Assembly: GCF_030506285.1 (NCBI RefSeq)
Contig: NZ_CP119422.1
Span: forward strand, 744,001 to 808,000
Direction of reading: 5' to 3'
Source: Catalinimonas niigatensis
GTDB lineage: Bacteria; Bacteroidota; Bacteroidia; Cytophagales; Cyclobacteriaceae
DNA: 64,000 nucleotides
Below, in pieces: positions 7,926 through 24,581 of this stretch. Numbering within the stretch: the stretch's first letter is position 1; each line of letters starts with the position of its first letter. Below the pieces are notes generated by a model. It was not told the DNA's origin. It searched no databases and saw only the letters and a list, made by a program, of their open reading frames with translations. Both the position numbers and the translations under genes were made by a program.

Positions 7926-9281
7926 CTAAAAAGTCAAGGTAAAGACTGTAGCTTCACCTTTAACAGATTGTACACTGATGTTCCCTTTGTGCAGCCGCAT
8001 GATTTGTCGGGAAAGACTTAGCCCTATTCCAGAACCATTTTCTTTGGTGGTGAAGAAAGGAACAAAAATCTGGTCTATCAGGTCCTCCTCCATTCCTTTC
8101 CCATTATCCATGACCTGAATTACACGCTGGTTCTTGTCATTGACAAAAGCGTAAACACTGATCTTTGGCGCTTCAACCGTTTGCAGGGCATCCATGGCAT
8201 TATTCACCAGATTGATCAATATTTGTTCTATCAATTCAAAATCCGCTTTTATATGTAGATTTTCAGGATCAACGCACACTTTCCAGGCAATATTTTTTTC
8301 ATTCAGCTTTGTTTTTAAAAGCGCATGTAACCTTTTTAAAAGCGCTTGAACTTCCACAGTGCGAAACTGAGGCTGAGCAATCTGGGTAAGACTCTTATAG
8401 GCTTTTACAAAATTGATAAGGCCATTGGTTCTTTCCTCAATGGTTATCAGGCTGCCATGTAAATCTTCCAGATCATCCTCATCCAGATCATTCAGCTTCA
8501 GTTTATCTTCTTCATCTACCTTGATCAGCATCTGATTGACCATCGCAGTAAGGTTAGAAATAGGAATGACAGAGTTCATAATCTCGTGTGTCAGTACCCG
8601 GATGAGTTTCTGCCAGGAAGCTACTTCCTGTTCCTCCAGTTCAGTCCTCAAATCCTGCATGGAAAGCAGTTTGTAATACTTAGCCTGCATTTTAAATTCA
8701 GTTGCTTGTACTGACAGTTGTAATAGCTGTTGATGAATGATCACCCTGCTCATTGTTTTCTCGCCTGCGTTGAGGTATTTCAACGTTTGGTAGAATTCCT
8801 GATCAATGTCCTGTAAATCATCCAGCTTTCTGAGTACAGGCTTTCGCAAAAGCTCTTTGGCTGCCTGATTTACGAGTTGTACCTGTCCCTCTTGATCCAC
8901 ACAGACCAAGGCCACTGAGACCTGCTCCACGATATTTTGCAGGTAGAGATGATGGCTTTCTTTTTCCTGCCTCAGTCTTTGAAAAGTACCTACCAACTGA
9001 TTGAATACTTCGCTCAGCATATGGCCTTTCATGGTCGGACGTTGATAATAGGTATTTGAAAACTCACCCTGCCGAATGGCAATTACCAGATTTTCCATCT
9101 CCAGGTGAGTACGCTCTATATAGCGGATCAGTTCCAGAAAGAGCACCATCAAAAGTAGGCCCAGCCAAAGGGATACCAGCCAGAAGTGTGTCTCAGTCAG
9201 TACATATAATATGCTGAATCCCACTGCAATAATAAGCAGCAGCCGGATCAATATTTGTGTTCTGAAGATGGTATATCGCAT
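7926..9281 (-). CDS. Sensor histidine kinase (NtrB-like)
   Basis: A 451-residue membrane kinase, partner of the regulator encoded just upstream. Two membrane segments lie at about 8-28 and 32-52 with almost no periplasmic loop, so the signal is probably sensed in the membrane or cytoplasm. A HAMP-like linker and a PAS domain (about 115-200, VALVCVDQEGQVQLVNQAAKEL) follow. The phospho-acceptor is His232 in LTHEIMNSV. The ATPase domain has NLVNNAMDAL, DNGKGM, FFTTKENGSGIGL. This layout is typical of kinases paired with sigma54 activators in Bacteroidota. It is the last gene of the probable operon 12769-7926. Confidence 0.93.
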   Translation of the reverse strand: MRYTIFRTQILIRLLLIIAVGFSILYVLTETHFWLVSLWLGLLLMVLFLELIRYIERTHLEMENLVIAIRQGEFSNTYYQRPTMKGHMLSEVFNQLVGTFQRLRQEKESHHLYLQNIVEQVSVALVCVDQEGQVQLVNQAAKELLRKPVLRKLDDLQDIDQEFYQTLKYLNAGEKTMSRVIIHQQLLQLSVQATEFKMQAKYYKLLSMQDLRTELEEQEVASWQKLIRVLTHEIMNSVIPISNLTAMVNQMLIKVDEEDKLKLNDLDEDDLEDLHGSLITIEERTNGLINFVKAYKSLTQIAQPQFRTVEVQALLKRLHALLKTKLNEKNIAWKVCVDPENLHIKADFELIEQILINLVNNAMDALQTVEAPKISVYAFVNDKNQRVIQVMDNGKGMEEDLIDQIFVPFFTTKENGSGIGLSLSRQIMRLHKGNISVQSVKGEATVFTLTF

Positions 9282-9335
9282 AGAGTTTTGGGTGTTTACT
9301 GAGTTGAGAGAATGTGGTTACAATTTGTTTGCACA

Positions 9336-9372
9336 AGCACTATAACACTCTAGCACTAAGAACCATAACACT
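9336..9372. repeat. Short direct repeats between kinase and regulator genes
   Basis: AGCACTA occurs at 9336 and 9352, and ATAACACT at 9342 and 9365, giving two copies of an AGCACTA...ATAACACT unit in the 94-bp gap. The function is unknown. It may be a binding site or replication slippage. Confidence 0.4.
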
Positions 9373-9375
9373 ATT

Positions 9376-10755
9376 CTAAAGCCCGTACTTCTTCATTTTT
9401 CGGTAAAGCGTACTTCTGCCCATACCTAATTCTGACGCCGTCTGGCTTAGGTTTCCCTGGTGTTTGCGGATGGCCTCTGAGATGGTCTTTTTTTCTACCT
9501 CTTCCAGGTTATAGGAATTTCGGATATTTGATGTTGGTTGATGTTTCTTTGAAATTAAAAAATCATCGGCTTCCAGGCGATTGGAATTACTCATGATGAC
9601 TGCCCGCTCTACGGCGTGTTGCAGTTCCCGCACATTCCCCGGCCAGGCATATTGCTGTAGTTGCCTGATGATATGCTCACTGATTTCCAGTTTTCCTTTC
9701 TGGTACTTCTTACCAAACTGCTGTAGGTAGTAATACAAAAGTACAGGAATGTCTTCTACTCTTTCGCGCAGGGCAGGAAGTTGAATTTCTACGGTATTGA
9801 TACGATACAGTAAATCCTGACGAAATGTAGGTTTATCTTGATCAGCCATGTCATATAGCGGCATATTGGTAGCACAGATCAGCCTTACATCCATCTGAAT
9901 AGGCTTATTGGTTCCAACCCTCACGATCTGCTTGCTTTGAAGAGCCGTCAGCAGTTTGGCCTGCAAGGGCAAAGACAGGTTACCAATCTCATCCAGAAAG
10001 AGCGTGCCGTTAGAAGCAATCTCAAACCTTCCGGCTCTGTCCTCTACTGCCCCTGTAAATGCCCCTTTGGCATGACCAAATAATTCCGACTCAAAAAGTG
10101 TCTCGGTTACTGCTCCTAAATCTACCTTGATAAAAGGCTGGGTTGACCTTTGGGAGGCTCGGTGAATGGCCCGTGCTACCAGTTCCTTACCGGTTCCGTT
10201 CTCGCCCAGTATCAGCACATTGGCATCGGTAGCCGAAACTTTCATGATGGTATCAAAGACGCTTTCCATCGCAGCCGATTCACTCACAATCTCACTAAAC
10301 GGACTTTCCAGGTCCTGGCTCAGCGCCTGTTCTCTGTTTTTCAGTTGGCTGACTTCCTGCTGAGAGCGGTGTCTTTCGTAATGTGAGATGATCGTGGCCA
10401 CAAGTCTTTCTTTTTCCCAAGGCTTGGTCAGAAAATCCACGGCTCCTTCTTTCATGGCATTGACCGCCAGATCTATATCTCCATAAGCGGTAGTCACTAC
10501 AATCTGTGCCTCCTCATCTGCCTTCAGCATTTCTTTGATCCAGAATAAGCCCTCCTGTCCACTGGTTTTTCCCTGGGCAAAATTCATATCCAGGAGTATG
10601 ACATCAAAATGTTCTTTCTCCAGCAGGGGCATCACTTGGGAGGGATGACTTGCTGTTCTGATCTGGGTAAAAATCTGTTTTAGAATCATTTTGGCGGTGT
10701 ATAAGACTGCCTGATCATCGTCTATAATGAGAATTTTACCCTCTTTTTTGTCCAT
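9376..10755 (-). CDS. Sigma54-dependent response regulator (NtrC family)
   Basis: Activates RNA polymerase carrying sigma54 from upstream enhancer sites. The ATG at 10755 ([14 protein letters not shown]) is preferred to a TTG eight codons earlier because it starts at the receiver's first strand. The receiver has DDD and phospho-acceptor Asp56 (VILLDMNF). The AAA+ domain has [14 protein letters not shown] (sigma54 contact) and FLDEIGNL. A Fis-type helix-turn-helix ends the protein ([20 protein letters not shown]). At 459 residues it is full length. It lies 42 bp after the anti-sigma-like gene and 94 bp before its kinase. A sigma54 promoter precedes the FtsX array 6 kb away, its most likely target here. 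Confidence 0.95.
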
Positions 10756-10797
10756 GCCTGAAGGTAGAACTTGTTTCAATATGATACAACGAACTCC

Positions 10798-12183
10798 CTA
10801 CTTTTTGAATCTTACCCTCAGCTTCACTTCCTGTCCGATGGCTTGTTCGTTTCGGGTAGCGGCTTTCCAGGCGGGGCCTTCCTGTATCAGCCGTATGGCT
10901 TCCTGGTCCAGCCATGTACCAGCACTTTTTTCTATGGTAAAATCGGTCAGCTTGCCGTTAGGCTGCACAAAGAAGGAAAGTTTTACCACAGCTTTATCCT
11001 CATCCTTCCAGTCTTCAGGGAATCTTTGATTTTCGCTCAGGTACTGCTTGAATGCCCGCATACCCTCCTGAGGCTGTGCGGAAACAGTCGTATTTGCAAT
11101 CTCATTTTCTCCCACTGTACTCACACTTCCCGTTACATCGCGACGCTCCTGAACGCCATAACCTACCACCACTACTTCACTCAACATCTGTATATCCTGG
11201 TTTAAAGCGATCAGCATGGTATCTTCCTGACTTATCGTAGCTTCTGAGTTTTCATAACCGATAGAACTAATGAGCAGTTCTTTATGCTTTTCCGCTAAGG
11301 ATATACTGAAATTCCCGGCTACATCGGTGATAGCTCCTATTGCTGTTCCTTTCACCAGCACATTGGCCCCTGGTACCGCTTCCCCGCTTTCCTGATCTAT
11401 GACTTTTCCGCTGATCGTGTAGCCTTCTGTGTCAGGGGCCATCGCAAAGGGAGCAGTCGCTGCTTTGGAACGTGCACTATAAGCATCTGTCGGTAACTTT
11501 TGCTCTTCTGCTTTAGTAGCCTTCCGCTTGGCCAGCGTAAAGTTCTCATCAAAGCTTTCTTCCTCTACTTCTGATACAATCTGCGGTGCTTCATCTGCCT
11601 GAGCAGTGCTCCCCGCTGAGCTTTCCGTTATGCTTTCGGGTGCAGACTCATTTAACATCGCTGATGGAGACGCTATTTTTCTTGATGGTAATTGTACCAT
11701 CGCCAGTGACTGAGGAGACTGATCTTCATCCGGAGAGGGAGTATCTGCCAGATCCTGGGGAGGAAGTGCGCTGATGGGAGATAGTCCATTTGATACTTCA
11801 GCTGATTCTTCTGGCACTGAGGATGCAGAATTTGATTCCTTGCTGGTCAAAGCGGATATATCTGATGGCTGCACATAGGTATAGACTGCATAAAAAACGC
11901 CGATCAGGAGTACCAAAGAAGCTGCTACCGGAAGCCAGTACACGCTAAGGCTCTTTGTAGACCTGGTTCTCTGCTGGATACGGCCACGAAGTTCATCCAC
12001 ATCTTTGGCAAAAGCATTTCCATCCTTTACTTCAGCCATACCTTCCAAAGCATCGGCGATAAAAGGGTCCTGAGTCTGTAATGCATTTAAGCGTGCTTCT
12101 TCCTCAGCCGACAATGTGCCGTCCCGAAACTTCTTCATCAGTTCCATACTCAATCGGTCGCTATCGTGGTGTAGCTTACTCAT
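10798..12183 (-). CDS. Anti-sigma-like membrane protein with SusC-type module and TonB C-terminal domain
   Basis: A 461-residue mosaic. Residues 1-80 form a short acidic/helical zinc-less anti-sigma-like segment (MELMKKFRDGTLSAEEEARL). One membrane helix follows (YWLPVAASLVLLIGVFYAVY). A low-complexity Ser/Glu linker reaches to about residue 240. Next is a CarboxypepD-regulatory domain (ISGKVIDQESGEAVPGANVL), then SEVVVVGYGVQERRDVTGSV, the motif that opens the plug of SusC receptors, and last a TonB C-terminal domain (AVVKLSFFVQPNGKLTDF). The start overlaps the ECF sigma stop by 8 bp, so translation is coupled. An inner-membrane regulator reaching across the periplasm is the natural reading; the anti-sigma activity itself is inferred from position and topology. 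Confidence 0.8.
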   Translation of the reverse strand: MSKLHHDSDRLSMELMKKFRDGTLSAEEEARLNALQTQDPFIADALEGMAEVKDGNAFAKDVDELRGRIQQRTRSTKSLSVYWLPVAASLVLLIGVFYAVYTYVQPSDISALTSKESNSASSVPEESAEVSNGLSPISALPPQDLADTPSPDEDQSPQSLAMVQLPSRKIASPSAMLNESAPESITESSAGSTAQADEAPQIVSEVEEESFDENFTLAKRKATKAEEQKLPTDAYSARSKAATAPFAMAPDTEGYTISGKVIDQESGEAVPGANVLVKGTAIGAITDVAGNFSISLAEKHKELLISSIGYENSEATISQEDTMLIALNQDIQMLSEVVVVGYGVQERRDVTGSVSTVGENEIANTTVSAQPQEGMRAFKQYLSENQRFPEDWKDEDKAVVKLSFFVQPNGKLTDFTIEKSAGTWLDQEAIRLIQEGPAWKAATRNEQAIGQEVKLRVRFKK

Positions 12184-12769
12184 GGTTTTTCTCTACATAA
12201 ATTTTCAGATTGCGTTTGCCATTCTGCAGGTAACTCTTCACTTTCTTGAGTTCGTAGCCCGTCATCTCGGCTACTTCCTGATAGGATTTCTGTTCCAGGT
12301 AAAACAGGCGGATACATTGCTGTTGTTCCGCTGGCAAAGTAGGTAAGCCTTTTTCAATCAACGGCCAGTAGTCTGCCGACAGTTCTGCTCTCCCCTCCTC
12401 TTCCTGCAAAGCTAGCCCATTTAGTGTCGCATGACCATTTTCATGAGGATGATCAAGACTCATTTGTATATGCATCTGCTGAGTCCTCAACTGCATCAGG
12501 CAGTGATTCTTCACAACGGTATACAACCAGCCTTTAAATTCTTTTACCTCGGTCTTCATTAAACTTACCACCAGCTTCTCAAATATCTGCATCACTGCAT
12601 CCTTGCTGGCCTCTTCATCCTTCAGGTATTTCAGACATACGCCATACACCAGATGGGTGTAGCGATCGTATAAATCGCCCAGGAACACCAAATCACCCGT
12701 GCTTGCATACTTTCGCAGCAAACTAGCGTCATCGGGAGCCACACGTGAAGTAAGTCTTTTAAAAAACAT
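12176..12769 (-). CDS. ECF-type RNA polymerase sigma factor
   Basis: A 197-residue sigma70-family extracytoplasmic-function factor. Region 2 is at about 25-90 (YDRYTHLVYGVCLKYLKDEEASKDAVMQIF is split by a variable loop) and region 4 at about 135-190 (LPAEQQQCIRLFYLEQKSYQEVAEMTG). It is the first gene of a leftward run with the anti-sigma-like gene (8-bp overlap), the sigma54 activator and the kinase. Upstream lies TTTATGGAA-N14-GCATCTTA, repeated in front of the divergent vWA gene, which fits an autoregulated ECF factor. Confidence 0.93.
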   Translation of the reverse strand: MFFKRLTSRVAPDDASLLRKYASTGDLVFLGDLYDRYTHLVYGVCLKYLKDEEASKDAVMQIFEKLVVSLMKTEVKEFKGWLYTVVKNHCLMQLRTQQMHIQMSLDHPHENGHATLNGLALQEEEGRAELSADYWPLIEKGLPTLPAEQQQCIRLFYLEQKSYQEVAEMTGYELKKVKSYLQNGKRNLKIYVEKNHE

Positions 12770-12799: not shown

Positions 12800-12830
12800 T
12801 AAGATGCTACAACTTCCCATTTTCCATAAA
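12800..12830 (-). promoter_or_regulatory. Candidate ECF-sigma promoter of the sigma/anti-sigma operon
   Basis: On the minus strand TTTATGGAA (12830-12822), 14 bases, then GCATCTTA (12807-12800). This contains GGAA-N17-TCTTA, the spacing of classical ECF promoters (GGAAC -35, TC-type -10). It ends 30 bp before the sigma factor ATG. The same two blocks with the same 14-base gap stand before the divergent vWA gene. Confidence 0.75.
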
Positions 12831-12860
12831 GCGGACGAAAAAAATATTTTTTCCTGATGA

Positions 12861-12891
12861 TTTATGGAATCTCCCCTGCCCCGGCATCTTA
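12861..12891 (+). promoter_or_regulatory. Candidate ECF-sigma promoter of the vWA gene
   Basis: TTTATGGAA (12861-12869), 14 bases, GCATCTTA (12884-12891), ending 19 bp before the ATG at 12911. Seventeen positions match the opposite promoter while the 14-bp spacers differ (TCTCCCC.. versus AATGGGA..), as expected for two sites read by one sigma factor rather than a simple duplication. Confidence 0.75.
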
Positions 12892-12910: not shown

Positions 12911-14764
12911 ATGAAAAAGTATATATTTATATTCGCGGCTCTGATTCTGATGGCTTTTGTCAATCCCCTTAGCCATTCATTGACGGTGAGCGGAAAGGTT
13001 ACTTCTGCTGAAGACGGCAGTCCGCTGCCGGGCGTCAATGTCCTGATCAAAGGCACCCCAAAAGGAACCATCACTGATGTATCGGGAAAGTATCAACTGG
13101 AAGTGAGTACCGGCAAGGAAACCCTGGTGTTTAGTACCGTCGGCTTTGTCAGCCAGGAAGTGAAAGTAAAACAACAGCATGAAATCAATATCGTCATGCA
13201 GACTGATGTACAAAGCTTGTCTGAGATAGTCGTTGTAGGTTATGGTACACAGAAAAGGTCTGCTATGACTGGCAGTGTGATGATGACTGAGACTGAATAT
13301 GCGCCCTCTTTTTATGCACCTCAGGACGAAGCTTTGCCGCAGCACAATACCGAAAACTATGCGACCATCCATGAAAATGGTTTTCTGGAAGTAAAAAACA
13401 ATGCGCTATCTACCTTTTCTATTGATGTGGATGCCGCTTCTTACAGCAATATCCGTCGCTTCATTGATCAGGGACAAATGCCTCCCAAAGATGCGGTGCG
13501 CATTGAAGAGATGGTCAATTATTTCACTTACGACTATGCACAACCCAGCGATGATACGCCTTTTGCGATAGCGACTGAACTCTCTACCTGCCCCTGGAAT
13601 GAGGAGCATCAGCTGGTACATATTGGCTTGCAGGGCAAAGAGAATCCTACCGAAGACCTGCCTCCTTCCAATCTGATATTCCTGATAGATGTATCCGGTT
13701 CTATGGATGCGCCCAATAAACTGCCGCTGCTAAAAAGTGCTTTCCGTATGCTGGTCAACCAGATGCGTCCCGAAGACAGGGTAGCCATCGTGGTGTATGC
13801 CGGTGCTGCCGGGATGGTGCTGCCTTCTACCCCTGCCAGTGAGAAAGAGAAGATCATGCAGGCTTTGGAGGAGTTGCAGGCAGGCGGCTCTACTGCCGGA
13901 GGCGCTGGCATCAATCTGGCCTACAAAATTGCCAAGGAACACTTTCAGGAGGAAGGCAACAACCGGGTCATCCTGGCTACCGACGGTGATTTTAATATAG
14001 GAGAATCCAGCGATGCCGGGATGGAAAGACTCATTGAAGAGAAACGGGAAGATGGCGTATTTCTGACCGTACTGGGCTTTGGGATGGGCAACTATAAGGA
14101 CTCCAAAATGGAAATCCTGGCGGATAAAGGCAATGGCAACTATGCCTACATTGACAATATACAGGAAGCCAAGAAGGTGCTGGTCAGTGAATTTGGTGGA
14201 ACACTTTTCACCATCGCGAAGGATGTGAAGCTACAAGTGGAATTTAATCCTACCAAAGTAAAAGCTTACCGCCTCATTGGCTACGAAAACCGTGCGCTTA
14301 AGAATGAAGACTTCAACAATGACAAGAAAGATGCCGGTGAACTGGGTTCCGGCCATACCGTGACCGCCATGTATGAGATCATTCCTGCCGATAGTGAAGA
14401 AGCAGTATCTTCCATAGATGCCTTGAAATACCAGGAGCAGAAAGTAAAATCTACTGCCCGACAATCGGATGAGCTGCTGACTTTGAAGCTGCGCTACAAA
14501 AGTCCGAAGGGCAGCAAAAGCCAGCTGACAGAACAGTCCTTGCTAAATCGTGCGGTACGCTTAGACAAAACCAGCAATAACTTTCGTTTTGCTGCGGCGG
14601 TCGCCGGATTTGGGATGCTGCTGCGGGATTCAGAACACAAAGGAGACCTGACTTACGATGCAGTTGCCACGCTGGCACGGGATGCCAGAGGGGAAGACAA
14701 GGAAGGCTATCGCCAGGAGTTTATCCGCATGGTAGAGTCCTGTAACCTGATGGCAAGTAAGTAA
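12911..14764 (+). CDS. von Willebrand factor A protein with CarboxypepD-regulatory domain (YfbK-like)
   Basis: A 617-residue exported protein. The ATG at 12911 starts a signal peptide (MKKYIFIFAALILMAFVN). A CarboxypepD-regulatory domain follows (VSGKVTSAEDGSPLPGVNVL), then SLSEIVVVGYGTQKRSAMTGSV, the SusC plug-opening motif, although no TonB barrel follows. A conserved vWA-associated N-terminal domain (about 120-235) leads to the vWA domain with its metal site DVSGS near residue 258 and TDGDFNIG, and the C-terminus is the DUF3520-like tail of the YfbK family. The same CarboxypepD/plug module occurs in the divergent anti-sigma-like protein. A shared promoter element ties the gene to the ECF sigma factor. 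Its role is unknown; protein-protein contact at the envelope is likely. Confidence 0.88.
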   Translation: MKKYIFIFAALILMAFVNPLSHSLTVSGKVTSAEDGSPLPGVNVLIKGTPKGTITDVSGKYQLEVSTGKETLVFSTVGFVSQEVKVKQQHEINIVMQTDVQSLSEIVVVGYGTQKRSAMTGSVMMTETEYAPSFYAPQDEALPQHNTENYATIHENGFLEVKNNALSTFSIDVDAASYSNIRRFIDQGQMPPKDAVRIEEMVNYFTYDYAQPSDDTPFAIATELSTCPWNEEHQLVHIGLQGKENPTEDLPPSNLIFLIDVSGSMDAPNKLPLLKSAFRMLVNQMRPEDRVAIVVYAGAAGMVLPSTPASEKEKIMQALEELQAGGSTAGGAGINLAYKIAKEHFQEEGNNRVILATDGDFNIGESSDAGMERLIEEKREDGVFLTVLGFGMGNYKDSKMEILADKGNGNYAYIDNIQEAKKVLVSEFGGTLFTIAKDVKLQVEFNPTKVKAYRLIGYENRALKNEDFNNDKKDAGELGSGHTVTAMYEIIPADSEEAVSSIDALKYQEQKVKSTARQSDELLTLKLRYKSPKGSKSQLTEQSLLNRAVRLDKTSNNFRFAAAVAGFGMLLRDSEHKGDLTYDAVATLARDARGEDKEGYRQEFIRMVESCNLMASK

Positions 14765-14879: not shown

Positions 14880-16453
14880 ATGATGCATCACAGGATGATA
14901 AACATTTGCTGCCTGGCAGGACTTTCCTTGCTCGGATTAGGCTGTAGTTCTCAGATCAAAAATGAGCTAACGATTAGGAAAGCCTCAGATGCTTATCCTA
15001 ACGGACAAAAGAAGTTTGATGGCAAATTCTTGGAGTGCGTCAGAAATGATACCTATGTTCCGGAACTGCTCATCTTTGAAAAGAAAAAGTTTGGCAAATG
15101 GACAGCTTACAACGAAGACGGAAGCATCCTGGAGACCAGAGAATATACTTCAAATGTAGAGGACTGTCAGACAGCCATTTTAAAACAGGGAGCCTGGAAG
15201 TACTTCAATCATGAAGGTATCCTTTATCTAACGGAACATTACCGGAATGATACCCTTATGCAGGCTGAGTGGGAGATGTACGAAGGCAATAGCCCCATAG
15301 GAACAGTCTTCAAAAGCGATATTCATGTAGACTCCATGGTTTATCTTCATGACAAGCACACCGGATCTCTGCTGAACAATGCTTCCTTTGATCAGTATTT
15401 TTTCAAGCCCATTCTTATTGTCAATGATGGGCAGGATCAGATTCAATCCTTGATTCCCTTCTGGTACTCACCCGATGGTGCTACCCCTGATTATTACCAT
15501 CCGTACCGTTCTGTTGAGGATGTACCTCAGCATTTTCGTCAGGACAGTTCATTCCATGCGTTGAATGGTCAGGTTGGACTGGTCTTATTTCTGGATGTCC
15601 TGAAAGAAAAGTATCAATCTTCCAATGTAACTACCAATACGGACGTAGACTATACAGAAGCCATACAAAGCAGGCTTAATCAGCCCTTGGAAGAGGGACA
15701 ACATTATTGCTTTCACGTTGACATTCGCCTGTCCGAACATGCAGGCTGCTCCATCAATCAATTTGGAGCACTCCTTACGCAAGAAGCCGTATCATTTGAT
15801 AGAGCTTCCACTTTGAGTACCAAAAGTATTTCTTTTGAAAGGCCTTTACGGAACACCGACCATTGGGAAACCTTATGTTCAACCTATACGGCCCGGGGTG
15901 GAGAAATGTACCTGACATTGGGAAGGCTTACTGATGTATCAGACACTAAAGTCATTCGTCGTGAGCCAAAGTCAAATAGTAGCCTGGATGTCAACAGAGC
16001 GGCCTACTATTTAATTGATCATGTAGAACTTTACCCTATTAGCTTAGTGATTGTCATTGTAATGAGCCTGCCATAAGGGAAGAAAATGCTCAGGATAGTT
16101 TATGGACAAAAATAGCGGAAGGGGATACATTGGTACTTCGTGATCTTCATTTTAGCTTTGACAGTGATGCGTTGGAAACTGCTTACTCGGATGATCTCTC
16201 CAAACTGTCACACTTCTTGACAGTCCATCCAGAGCAAAACATAAGCATTCAGGGACACAGTTCTGATGAAGGTACGGATGCCTATAACCTTGACCTGTCA
16301 TACAAAAGAGCGCAGGCAGTAGGAGAATGGCTTGTTGGAGAAGGTATTACCCCTGAGAGATTGCGATTTGAAGCCTATGGTAGCAGCAGGCCTATTTCTG
16401 AGCTAAGTCAGAAAGCCAACCGACGGGTTGAAGTTATTCTGCTCAAGGAATGA
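14880..16453 (+). pseudogene. OmpA-family lipoprotein, split by a frameshift
   Basis: Two frames make one gene. Frame one (14880-16076, 398 codons) has a lipoprotein signal with lipobox LGLGC, MORN-like strands (AYPNGQKKFDGKF, GKWTAYNEDGSI, GAWKYFNHEG) and a middle domain ending DHVELYPI. It then closes with LVIVIVMSLP, unlike any domain end. The downstream frame (-1 relative) reads LSDCHCNEPAIREENAQDSLW from 16043, continuing into a complete OmpA domain (FSFDSD ... GHSSDEGTDAYNLDLSYKRA) to 16453. An in-frame TAG at 16040-16042 in the second frame puts the shift between 16043 and 16073. No slippery heptamer is visible, so a one-base insertion or sequencing error is likelier than programmed frameshifting. 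The OmpA part has no ATG (only TTG at 16130). Confidence 0.75.
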
Positions 16454-22178: not shown

Positions 22179-24581
22179 ATGCTTCAAAACTATTTCAAGA
22201 TCGCCTATCGCAACCTGCTTAAAAACAAAGTATTCGGCCTGATCAACATATTGGGCTTGGCGATAGGCATAGCGGCCTGCCTGCTCATCATCCATTATGT
22301 GCGCTTTGAGCTGAGCTACGAAGATTTTCATCAAAATGCCGACAACACCTATCGGGTAACGCTGGACCTTTACAACGGATCGGAATATGTGGTGACCGAT
22401 TGTGAAACCTACGGACCTTTAGGGCCTATGCTGAAAGCTCAGATGCCCGAAGTACTGGATTTCGTCCGCATGTATCACAACGAATCGCGTGAGGTAAAAG
22501 TCGGTACGCATCAGTTTTTTGAAAACCGCATTTACTTTGCAGATTCCTCCGCTTTAAAGGTCTTTACCTACGATGTGCTGCATGGCAATCCCACTACCGC
22601 TCTTTCTTATCCTTTCCAGACGATACTTACGGCTTCTATGGCCAACAAATACTTCGGCAGGCTCAATGTGGTAGGAGAATCCATTGAAATTGATGATGAT
22701 TTGTACAAAATATCGGCTGTTATTGCTGACCTTCCTCCCAATACCCATTTAAAATTTGACTTCCTGCTCTCTCATACCACCATCCAAAAGATGTGGAGCT
22801 GGTATGAAGAATATGCCTGGAATGGAAATAATGAATATACCTATCTGCTGATGTCGCCCAGAACAGACCTGGCTGAATTCAACTAAAAGCTAACGAAGCT
22901 ATCCATTGAACTGAAAGATAAAATTGGGGAAGACCGCTTTGTGGCTGAACCGATTAATGATATCCATCTTTATTCTCATAAAACCTTTGAGCCGGAAGTG
23001 AATGGGAATGCCAAAGTGGTGTATTTTCTGCTGGTGATTGCCATCTTCATTCTTCTCATTGCCTGGGTGAATTATATCAATCTTTCTACTGCCCGAGCTG
23101 TGGAGCGAGCTAAGGAAGTAGGCATTCGCAAAGTGATGGGGTCGGCCAGAGGGCAGCTTATCTTTCAGTTTTTACTGGAGTCAGCTATGGTCATCATACT
23201 GTCTGCGGGCTTTGCCCTGACTCTATTACAGATCAGCTTACCGCTTTTTCGGGACATCAGCGGTCAGCCTTTGCCGCTTGCCCTGATCAGCGATCCAGTA
23301 TTCTGGTACATGCTGGCCTCACTGCTGCTTGCAGGAGCCCTATTGTCTGGTTTGTATCCCGCTTTTGTGCTGTCTTCTTTTCAGCCTACTACGGTGCTGA
23401 AAGGGAAGCTTAGCACTTCCTCTCACGGACACTGGCTGCGCAAGGGTCTGGTCATCTTTCAGTTTGCCTCTGCTGTCATACTCATTGCCTGCACCTGTAC
23501 GGTGTACCTTCAAATCCAGCATTTGCGCCATCAGGATATGGGTATGCATCTGGAGCAGGTACTTGCCATTCATGCGCCCAGCCTGGATATGCCTGACTCC
23601 CTGCGTCAGGAAAGCTCAGAAAGTTTTAAAAACCAGTTGCTGCAACATACTGCGGTGCAAAGCGTCGCCCGCTCGGAATCCCTGCCAGGCTTGAGTCTGC
23701 ACGAACTTAGCACTTCTACCGGTATCAAACGAGTGGGTGAGGATGAAAGCGGAAGGGGTTATAACTATTATATTATCCGCATGGATGAAGACTTTATTCC
23801 TACCATGGGCATGGAACTCATAGCAGGCCGTAATTTTGATCCAATGGCTCATCCCAGTCAGGTGATACTCAATGAAGAGGCAGTACGCTTATTGGGCTTT
23901 GCCAGTGCAGAAGCTGCGCTGGGAGAACAAATCACATATTACTGGCAAGATAAGCCCTCCACGGTCATTGGCGTTATCAGAAACTTTCACCAGCAGTCGC
24001 CCAAGGAAGCCCATATCCCCATGATCTTTCCCTTCATCGTCCACGAAAGTTATTATACCATTCGGCTGAATACGGAACAGATTCGTGAAAGTGTGGACTT
24101 GCTCCAGACCAGTTGGGAAAGCAGTTTTCCGAACAGTGCCTTTGACTACTTCTTTCTAAATGAAACCTATGATCTGCAGTATCGCAGCGATACACAATTT
24201 GGTCAGGTGGTAGGTATTTTTTCTACTCTCGCCATCTTCATTGCCTGTATGGGCTTGTTTGGGCTATCTTCCTTTACCATCGTACAGCGAACCAAAGAAA
24301 TCGGCATTCGCAAGGTGCTGGGGGCTTCCATAAGTCAGATTGTCCGACTCCTCTCCCGGGACTTTATCCGTCTGGTATTCGTTGCCAGTATCGTGGCGAT
24401 ACCCGTTGCCTATTTCGCAATGAAGGAATGGCTGAATGGATATGCCACCCGGATCAGCCTGAGCTGGTGGATATTTGCATTTCCCCTATGTACGATTTTG
24501 TTGATTGCTTTACTCACTGTAAGTTTTCAGACTATCAGAGCTGCCATAGCCAATCCAGCAAAATCGCTTCGCTATGAATAA
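22179..24581 (+). pseudogene. FtsX/MacB-type permease 3, interrupted by an in-frame stop
   Basis: One reading frame of 801 codons is broken by a single TAA at codon 236 (22884-22886). Translation on both sides stays in the same frame and matches the family without a gap: ...LAEFN, stop, KLTKLSIELKDKIGEDRF, then the FtsX block (VERAKEVGIRKVMGSARGQL) and the final FGLSSFTIVQRTKEIGIRKVLGAS. The break falls inside the first periplasmic domain. A single base change (for example CAA to TAA) explains it. The part after the stop could restart at the GTG at 22941, but that product would lack the first helix and most of the periplasmic domain. Either a recent mutation or a sequencing error. Confidence 0.85.

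Follow-up and report, generated by a model that had tools for sequence, protein, structure and literature searches.

A putative ECF sigma-factor promoter that lies within the sigma gene in most relatives appears to have moved upstream in the lineage of Catalinimonas niigatensis

The window analysed here, 64,000 nucleotides of the Catalinimonas niigatensis genome, contains a gene for an ECF sigma factor of 197 aa (12176..12769, minus strand), in which Pfam recognises the sigma-2 and sigma-4 regions as Sigma70_r2 (residues 33-98) and Sigma70_r4_2 (140-188) and, beyond these, only Sigma70_r4 at E<=0.001; its profile finds SigK, SigW and other ECF sigma factors of solved structure. The stop codon of this gene is overlapped by the gene for a protein with N-terminal helices, a membrane helix, a CarboxypepD_reg and a TonB_C domain (10798..12183, minus strand), and the membrane helix is present in 92 of the 96 relatives found. 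The structural model of the protein, of moderate quality (pLDDT 70.4, pTM 0.46), places helices ahead of the membrane helix, and 17 of its 26 fold matches are anti-sigma chains, none of them significant (best E-value 2.6); a PDB profile search with the same protein matched no anti-sigma factor. We refer to it as anti-sigma-like and regard it as a candidate anti-sigma factor. Directly after it, on the same strand, follow genes for an NtrC-type response regulator and a histidine kinase (7926-10779). Divergently from the sigma gene lies the proposed target, a vWA/YfbK protein with the Pfam domains YfbK_C, vWF_A, VWA and CarbopepD_reg_2 (12911..14764, plus strand). Its reading frame has an alternative in-frame ATG at 12857, but the start at 12911 is preferred because a stretch begins there that, by inspection, is signal-peptide-like. 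One part of the vWA protein, and likewise one part of the anti-sigma-like protein, is similar to the N-terminal region of SusC/RagA receptors (partial TIGR04056 matches); in each protein this part ends in VVVGYG, a motif present in 17 of 101 vWA N-termini and in 38 of 96 relatives of the anti-sigma-like protein.

The ECF start (ATG, first base 12769, minus strand) and the vWA start (ATG at 12911, plus strand) are separated by 141 bp, and this gap carries two exact copies of the element TTTATGGAA-N14-GCATCTTA, one facing the vWA/YfbK gene (12861..12891, plus strand) and ending 19 bp before it, the other facing the sigma gene (12800..12830, minus strand) and ending 30 bp before it. An initial annotation of this DNA had described the same pair, and its coordinates agree with ours, as does its observation that 17 bases and the spacing are common to both copies while the 14-base spacers are unlike in sequence. 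We propose the first copy as a candidate ECF-dependent promoter with GGAA as the -35 and GCATC as the -10 element, and the second as a candidate autoregulatory promoter for the sigma and anti-sigma-like genes. The distance from GGAA to TC is 17 bases, and the consensus has a T after GGAA; GGAA(T) and GCATC thus stand where classical ECF promoters have AAC at -35 and CGT at -10, as given in the available part of PMC8103513. Between the two -35 elements lie 15 bp of A/T only (12838..12852), which, read from the sequence, might form a shared UP-like element. In the relatives described below, a block rich in A/T recurs about 11-20 bp ahead of the -35; it is seen in 96 vWA-facing sites, in 52 remote sites and, less strongly, in 98 in-gene sites. 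At up to three mismatches the window holds three sites compared with a mean of 0.38 in 100 shuffles, two of which also reached three, and in the whole genome of 7,134,482 bases (7.13 Mb) the exact element occurs twice, both times in this gap and back to back. A scan for sigma-70-type promoters and terminators, which does not cover Bacteroidota promoters, remained at shuffle level.

Among 196 genomes of the family, an ortholog of the sigma factor was found in 114 at E<=1e-25, a number that is possibly low because at most 16 candidates were scored per genome. Loci with partial genes (G059, G134, G144 and G161) were omitted, as were second copies present in a few genomes, leaving 110 family loci; 101 of these have the divergent vWA/YfbK gene in the fetched flank, and in the remaining nine the flank had no vWA gene or the contig ended. 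The vWA-facing element is present at up to three mismatches in 98 of the 101 loci and in 9 of 505 shuffled regions, although this is not a blind test, since the consensus was first noticed in those same loci. Scored against TTTATGGAAT-N13-GCATC, where any spacing different from 13 cost one mismatch, the best site has 0, 1, 2, 3 or more mismatches in 43, 35, 14, 6 and 3 loci, respectively; the family counts are not independent because the rows are related. A second, named set consists of the best 80 of 564 confirmed stretches from several families (Pedobacter, Chitinophaga, Mucilaginibacter, Pontibacter, Hymenobacter, Olivibacter and other genera), at least five of which duplicate family proteins, and 44 of these best 80 have a vWA-facing-type site within 350 bp at up to two mismatches, the neighbour being presumed to be the vWA gene. 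In the joint set, from which five rows with identical proteins were removed, 140 of 184 loci have a vWA-facing copy at up to one mismatch. Conversely, a vWA relative (E<=1e-60) was absent from 29 of the 30 near-complete genomes tested among the 82 without the sigma factor. The twin elements are thus predicted to be a real pair of ECF-type promoters, and the proposal of divergent promoters made in the initial annotation is supported by the conservation of the vWA-facing copy. One 99%-complete genome of the window's own genus (G002) has neither an ECF ortholog (E<=1e-25) nor a vWA relative (E<=1e-60), and the unit is therefore variable even inside the genus.

The initial annotation had further suggested a single operon, in which transcription from the sigma-facing promoter would extend to the two-component pair. 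The response-regulator frame does start 18 bp past the anti-sigma-like stop on the same strand, as such an operon would have it, but among 165 loci a close response regulator homolog occurs only in the same-genus locus L350 (82% identity), where it lies some 2.4 kb past the anti-sigma-like gene, with a weak partial match in L282; kinase homologs are likewise limited to one in L350 and weak partial matches in three other loci. Judged by this comparison, the two-component pair is outside the conserved unit, and we consider its control by the sigma-facing promoter unlikely.

In most relatives a further copy of the element lies inside the sigma gene itself. An exact family-wide search returned 14 sites within the ECF gene, every one of them in frame and at approximately the same place. 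When the core TATGGAA-N14-GCATC was searched on the sense strand of the 110 family ECF genes, 76 matched exactly and 22, 5 and 7 had one, two or more mismatches; 98 of 110 genes thus carry it at 0-1 mismatches compared with 766 of 2200 synonymous shuffles, of which 187 were exact and 579 had one mismatch. On the antisense strand none of the 110 genes has the core at up to two mismatches. In the named set (best 80 of 564), 73 of 80 loci have it at 0-1 mismatches, mostly as TGTGGAA, compared with 279 of 1600 shuffles, and in the joint set an in-gene copy facing the anti-sigma-like gene is found for 172 of 185 distinct sigma proteins. The 23 other ECF genes of the window's genome do not have the core at up to two mismatches in the parts matched (0/23). 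The copy is also absent from the window's ECF gene and from L065-L070 and L081. The corresponding position in the window lies at approximately 12390..12430 (minus strand), in the linker between sigma-2 and sigma-4, an uncertain placement given the gappy alignment (A1), and the best core match of the window's ECF frame has four mismatches and lies away from it. An element within the sigma gene, as in sigH/rshA of Corynebacterium glutamicum, is hence a feature of the relatives and not of the window.

The in-gene copy could be the by-product of a conserved linker peptide (xME-x5-H) with no promoter role of its own, in which case only the vWA-facing element would matter. The peptide is indeed present in 161 of the 172 proteins with an in-gene copy, many Pedobacter slots encode near-identical peptides, and the shuffles that yield 766 of 2200 near matches preserve the protein. 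However, within the slot pattern x-M/V-E-x5-H the synonymous positions do not change, although the amino acids do. Compared with expectations computed from codon use, the first codon ends in T in 97 of 98 family slots (47.8 expected), even though the residue encoded may be F, L, I, V, S, H, N or others, and the codon preceding the histidine ends in G in 79 of 85 (29.1 expected). The glutamates are encoded by GAA in 93 of 93 cases, the third base at this position being A in 93 of 98 slots (expected 60.8), and all 98 codons at the histidine position have T as their last base (expected 66.7). The slots of the named set (best 80 of 564) behave in the same way, with T in 62 of 65 (expected 32.6), G in 47 of 59 (expected 19.5), A in 63 of 65 (expected 40.5) and, at the histidine position, T in 62 of 65 (expected 39.4). 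The two positions with variable residues reach z values of 11.2 and 11.9, whereas flanking codons reach at most 6.3, kinship inflating all of these values. In these counts identical slots were counted once, 10 family and 7 named loci had no recognisable slot, and a spurious match brought in L065; when more than one slot fitted, the choice fell on the one closest to TATGGAA, which favours the first three codons and not the G or CAT positions. The bases fixed beside ATG and CAT despite varying residues speak against a mere peptide by-product, as do the spacing, which is that of the intergenic sites, the weak A/T block and the loss of the peptide from all 11 proteins whose genes have only an upstream copy. 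We therefore regard a by-product as quite unlikely and favour a promoter within the sigma gene.

The sigma-facing upstream copy seen in the window is much rarer. It was found at up to two mismatches in 12 of 101 family loci (0 of 505 shuffles) and, within 350 bp, in 4 of the 80 named loci (best 80 of 564). With the arrangement scored at up to one mismatch and with TATGGAA or TGTGGAA accepted, 16 of the 184 distinct loci that could be scored have an upstream copy, and 11 of these 16 have no in-gene copy. The 185 distinct ECF proteins divide into 166 with the in-gene copy only, 5 with both, 11 with the upstream copy only (L031, which is the window, L065-L070, L081, L270, L272 and L329), 2 with neither (L083 and L084) and 1 with an in-gene copy and an upstream sequence too short to score. 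Loss of the in-gene copy is associated with gain of the upstream copy in Fisher's test (p 8e-10), which ignores ancestry, whereas a tree-aware sign test was not significant (p 0.5). Parsimony requires four changes of the in-gene state on a tree built from all columns and six on a tree without the linker, so that the number of relocations is uncertain, approximately 2-4, and the association rests on about this many events. Since synonymous positions are fixed in the relatives and the 23 other ECF genes have no core, the twin promoters look relocated, and the sigma-facing promoter of the window looks like an upstream replacement of the element that is in-gene in most relatives. The claim of the initial annotation that the ECF factor drives itself would accordingly apply to the window's lineage and a few others (upstream copy alone in 11 and both copies in 5 of 185) and not to most relatives; its picture left out the overlapping anti-sigma-like gene as well as the in-gene copy and distant sites of the relatives.

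The genome scan that had been proposed for finding the whole regulon was carried out and gave no further sites above control in the window's genome. At up to three mismatches there are 42 sites compared with 32 for a reversed-pattern control, and the sites other than the two exact copies therefore look like background; the core TATGGAA-N13..15-GCATC gives 4 sites compared with 3. A regulon elsewhere in this genome was rejected on these counts, and its vWA paralog (L056) was rejected as a target since no element was visible by eye. Across the 196 family genomes, by contrast with 5 matches of the reversed pattern, 133 exact sites were found: 45 vWA-facing, 1 sigma-facing, 14 in-gene, 62 elsewhere in the 114 genomes with the ECF gene and 11 in the 82 without it. 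Of the 62, 53 lie outside ORFs of at least 150 aa, whereas 9 of the 11 lie inside. A downstream ORF follows 55 of the 62, in 43 cases at 9-37 bp, and its Pfam domains include CarboxypepD_reg_2 (25), DUF4139 (12), DUF4140 (12), MG2 (6), SIMPL (4), SQHop_cyclase_C (3), YfbK_C, VIT and TonB_C (2 each) and several singles. Exact copies stand before DUF4139/DUF4140, macroglobulin (MG2), SIMPL, VIT, TonB and CarboxypepD genes at L174-L233, L244 and L245. These distant sites suggest an envelope regulon in the relatives. Two sites of the ECF-less group are counter-examples that resemble real targets, namely L246, whose genome is 60% complete and which precedes a vWA gene, and L237, which precedes a CarboxypepD gene.

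Given the positions, conservation and synonymous-position constraint of the elements and their co-occurrence with the ECF gene, all of which were computed directly, we think it quite probable that the adjacent ECF sigma factor recognises the twin elements as promoters and that their arrangement arose by relocation. Sigma-factor recognition, the transcription starts and the anti-sigma activity we infer from this comparison. In the proposed mechanism, the membrane-bound anti-sigma-like protein would let go of the sigma factor, which would become active and transcribe the vWA/YfbK gene and, in the arrangement of the window, the sigma gene along with the anti-sigma-like gene that overlaps it. In most relatives the element lies between the sigma-2 and sigma-4 coding parts, so that only the anti-sigma-like gene would be raised, giving a shut-off feedback; with the in-gene copy lost and an upstream copy present instead, the window's lineage would have added positive autoregulation. 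The relocation would then look like a change from a sigma factor that raises its inhibitor to one that raises both its own expression and that of the inhibitor; which way the element moved and what this did to the feedback are read from the comparison. In general terms, it is probable that in several Bacteroidota families an in-gene target promoter constrains codons and linker peptide and raises the inhibitor, and that in the window's lineage and a few others it has been replaced by an upstream copy, with co-induction and positive autoregulation. Several findings count against this explanation: the GCATC -10 unlike the classical CGT, the 17 bases from GGAA to TC, the lower recovery of vWA-facing copies under the stricter scoring (140 of 184 and 44 of 80 loci), the non-significant tree-aware test, the lack of significant fold or sequence matches for the anti-sigma function, the target-like sites of the ECF-less group and the absence of the in-gene copy from the window. 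Alternatively, the element could be the operator of another DNA-binding regulator, with the ECF factor merely travelling along; its tie to the sigma factor is comparative, and its -10 and spacing are not classical for ECF promoters. Yet the element is bipartite with GGAA first and almost always a 14-base spacing, keeps to one side of the start, mostly 20-40 bp ahead of the ATG, and is linked to the presence of the ECF gene, which makes an operator very improbable. The inverted pair was rejected as a single dimer operator because most relatives have one intergenic element, and a sigma-54 site, in which GG and GC are 10 bases apart, was rejected because here the distance is 16.

The preferred reading, promoters served by the adjacent ECF factor, has its closest parallel in C. 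glutamicum, where, according to the available part of PMC3489674, the SigH-dependent promoter PrshA within sigH was shown experimentally to drive rshA alone, with rapid shut-off as its proposed role. Common to both are an ECF gene followed by an anti-sigma or anti-sigma-like gene, an in-gene promoter (here a putative one, in the relatives) and a GGAA-type -35. However, the sigH/rshA system is actinobacterial, with a -10 of the TGTTAAA type, a zinc anti-sigma factor and a description from one species (PMC3489674, available part), whereas the present one, predicted from sequence, belongs to Bacteroidota, has GCATC as the -10, shows conservation of synonymous positions over many genera and, in the window's lineage, has the in-gene element replaced by an upstream copy. 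Autoregulated ECF operons, as outlined in the accessible portion of PMC8103513, resemble the locus in the sigma-2/sigma-4 protein, the adjoining anti-sigma (here anti-sigma-like) gene and, for the window, the predicted positive autoregulation, but differ in the AAC/CGT elements, and most relatives here would drive the anti-sigma-like and not the sigma gene. A class I anti-sigma factor is rarely encoded next to Bacteroidetes ECFs, as stated in the excerpt of PMC7406223. The SM6 motif of Flavobacterium psychrophilum is likewise a proposed Bacteroidota ECF promoter motif that includes one ECF/anti-sigma pair, but in the available text its -10 is a CGT box and its targets are those of type IX secretion (PMC9723704). 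In Caulobacter vibrioides, sigV is also served by a promoter within a coding sequence, that of the neighbouring cabp, although this promoter, as described in the accessible part of PMC13171946, lies in another gene and drives the sigma and not the anti-sigma gene. The literature searched, mostly outside subscription journals, contained no report of an in-gene anti-sigma promoter in Bacteroidota. If the proposal holds, a widespread ECF group of Bacteroidota, for which that literature offered neither, would gain a target promoter and a candidate envelope regulon, and natural species pairs that differ in the place of one promoter would allow two feedback designs to be compared directly. Promoter searches restricted to the regions upstream of sigma genes would overlook the in-gene copy.

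Two further places in the window may contain interrupted genes. At 22179-24581 (plus strand) a permease-like protein, similar to its neighbours of 799-840 aa, is divided over two successive ORFs (235 and 546 aa) and is possibly interrupted, and at 14880-16453 (plus strand) a 398-aa ORF with no Pfam match is followed by a 107-aa OmpA-domain ORF, which may represent one interrupted gene or two.
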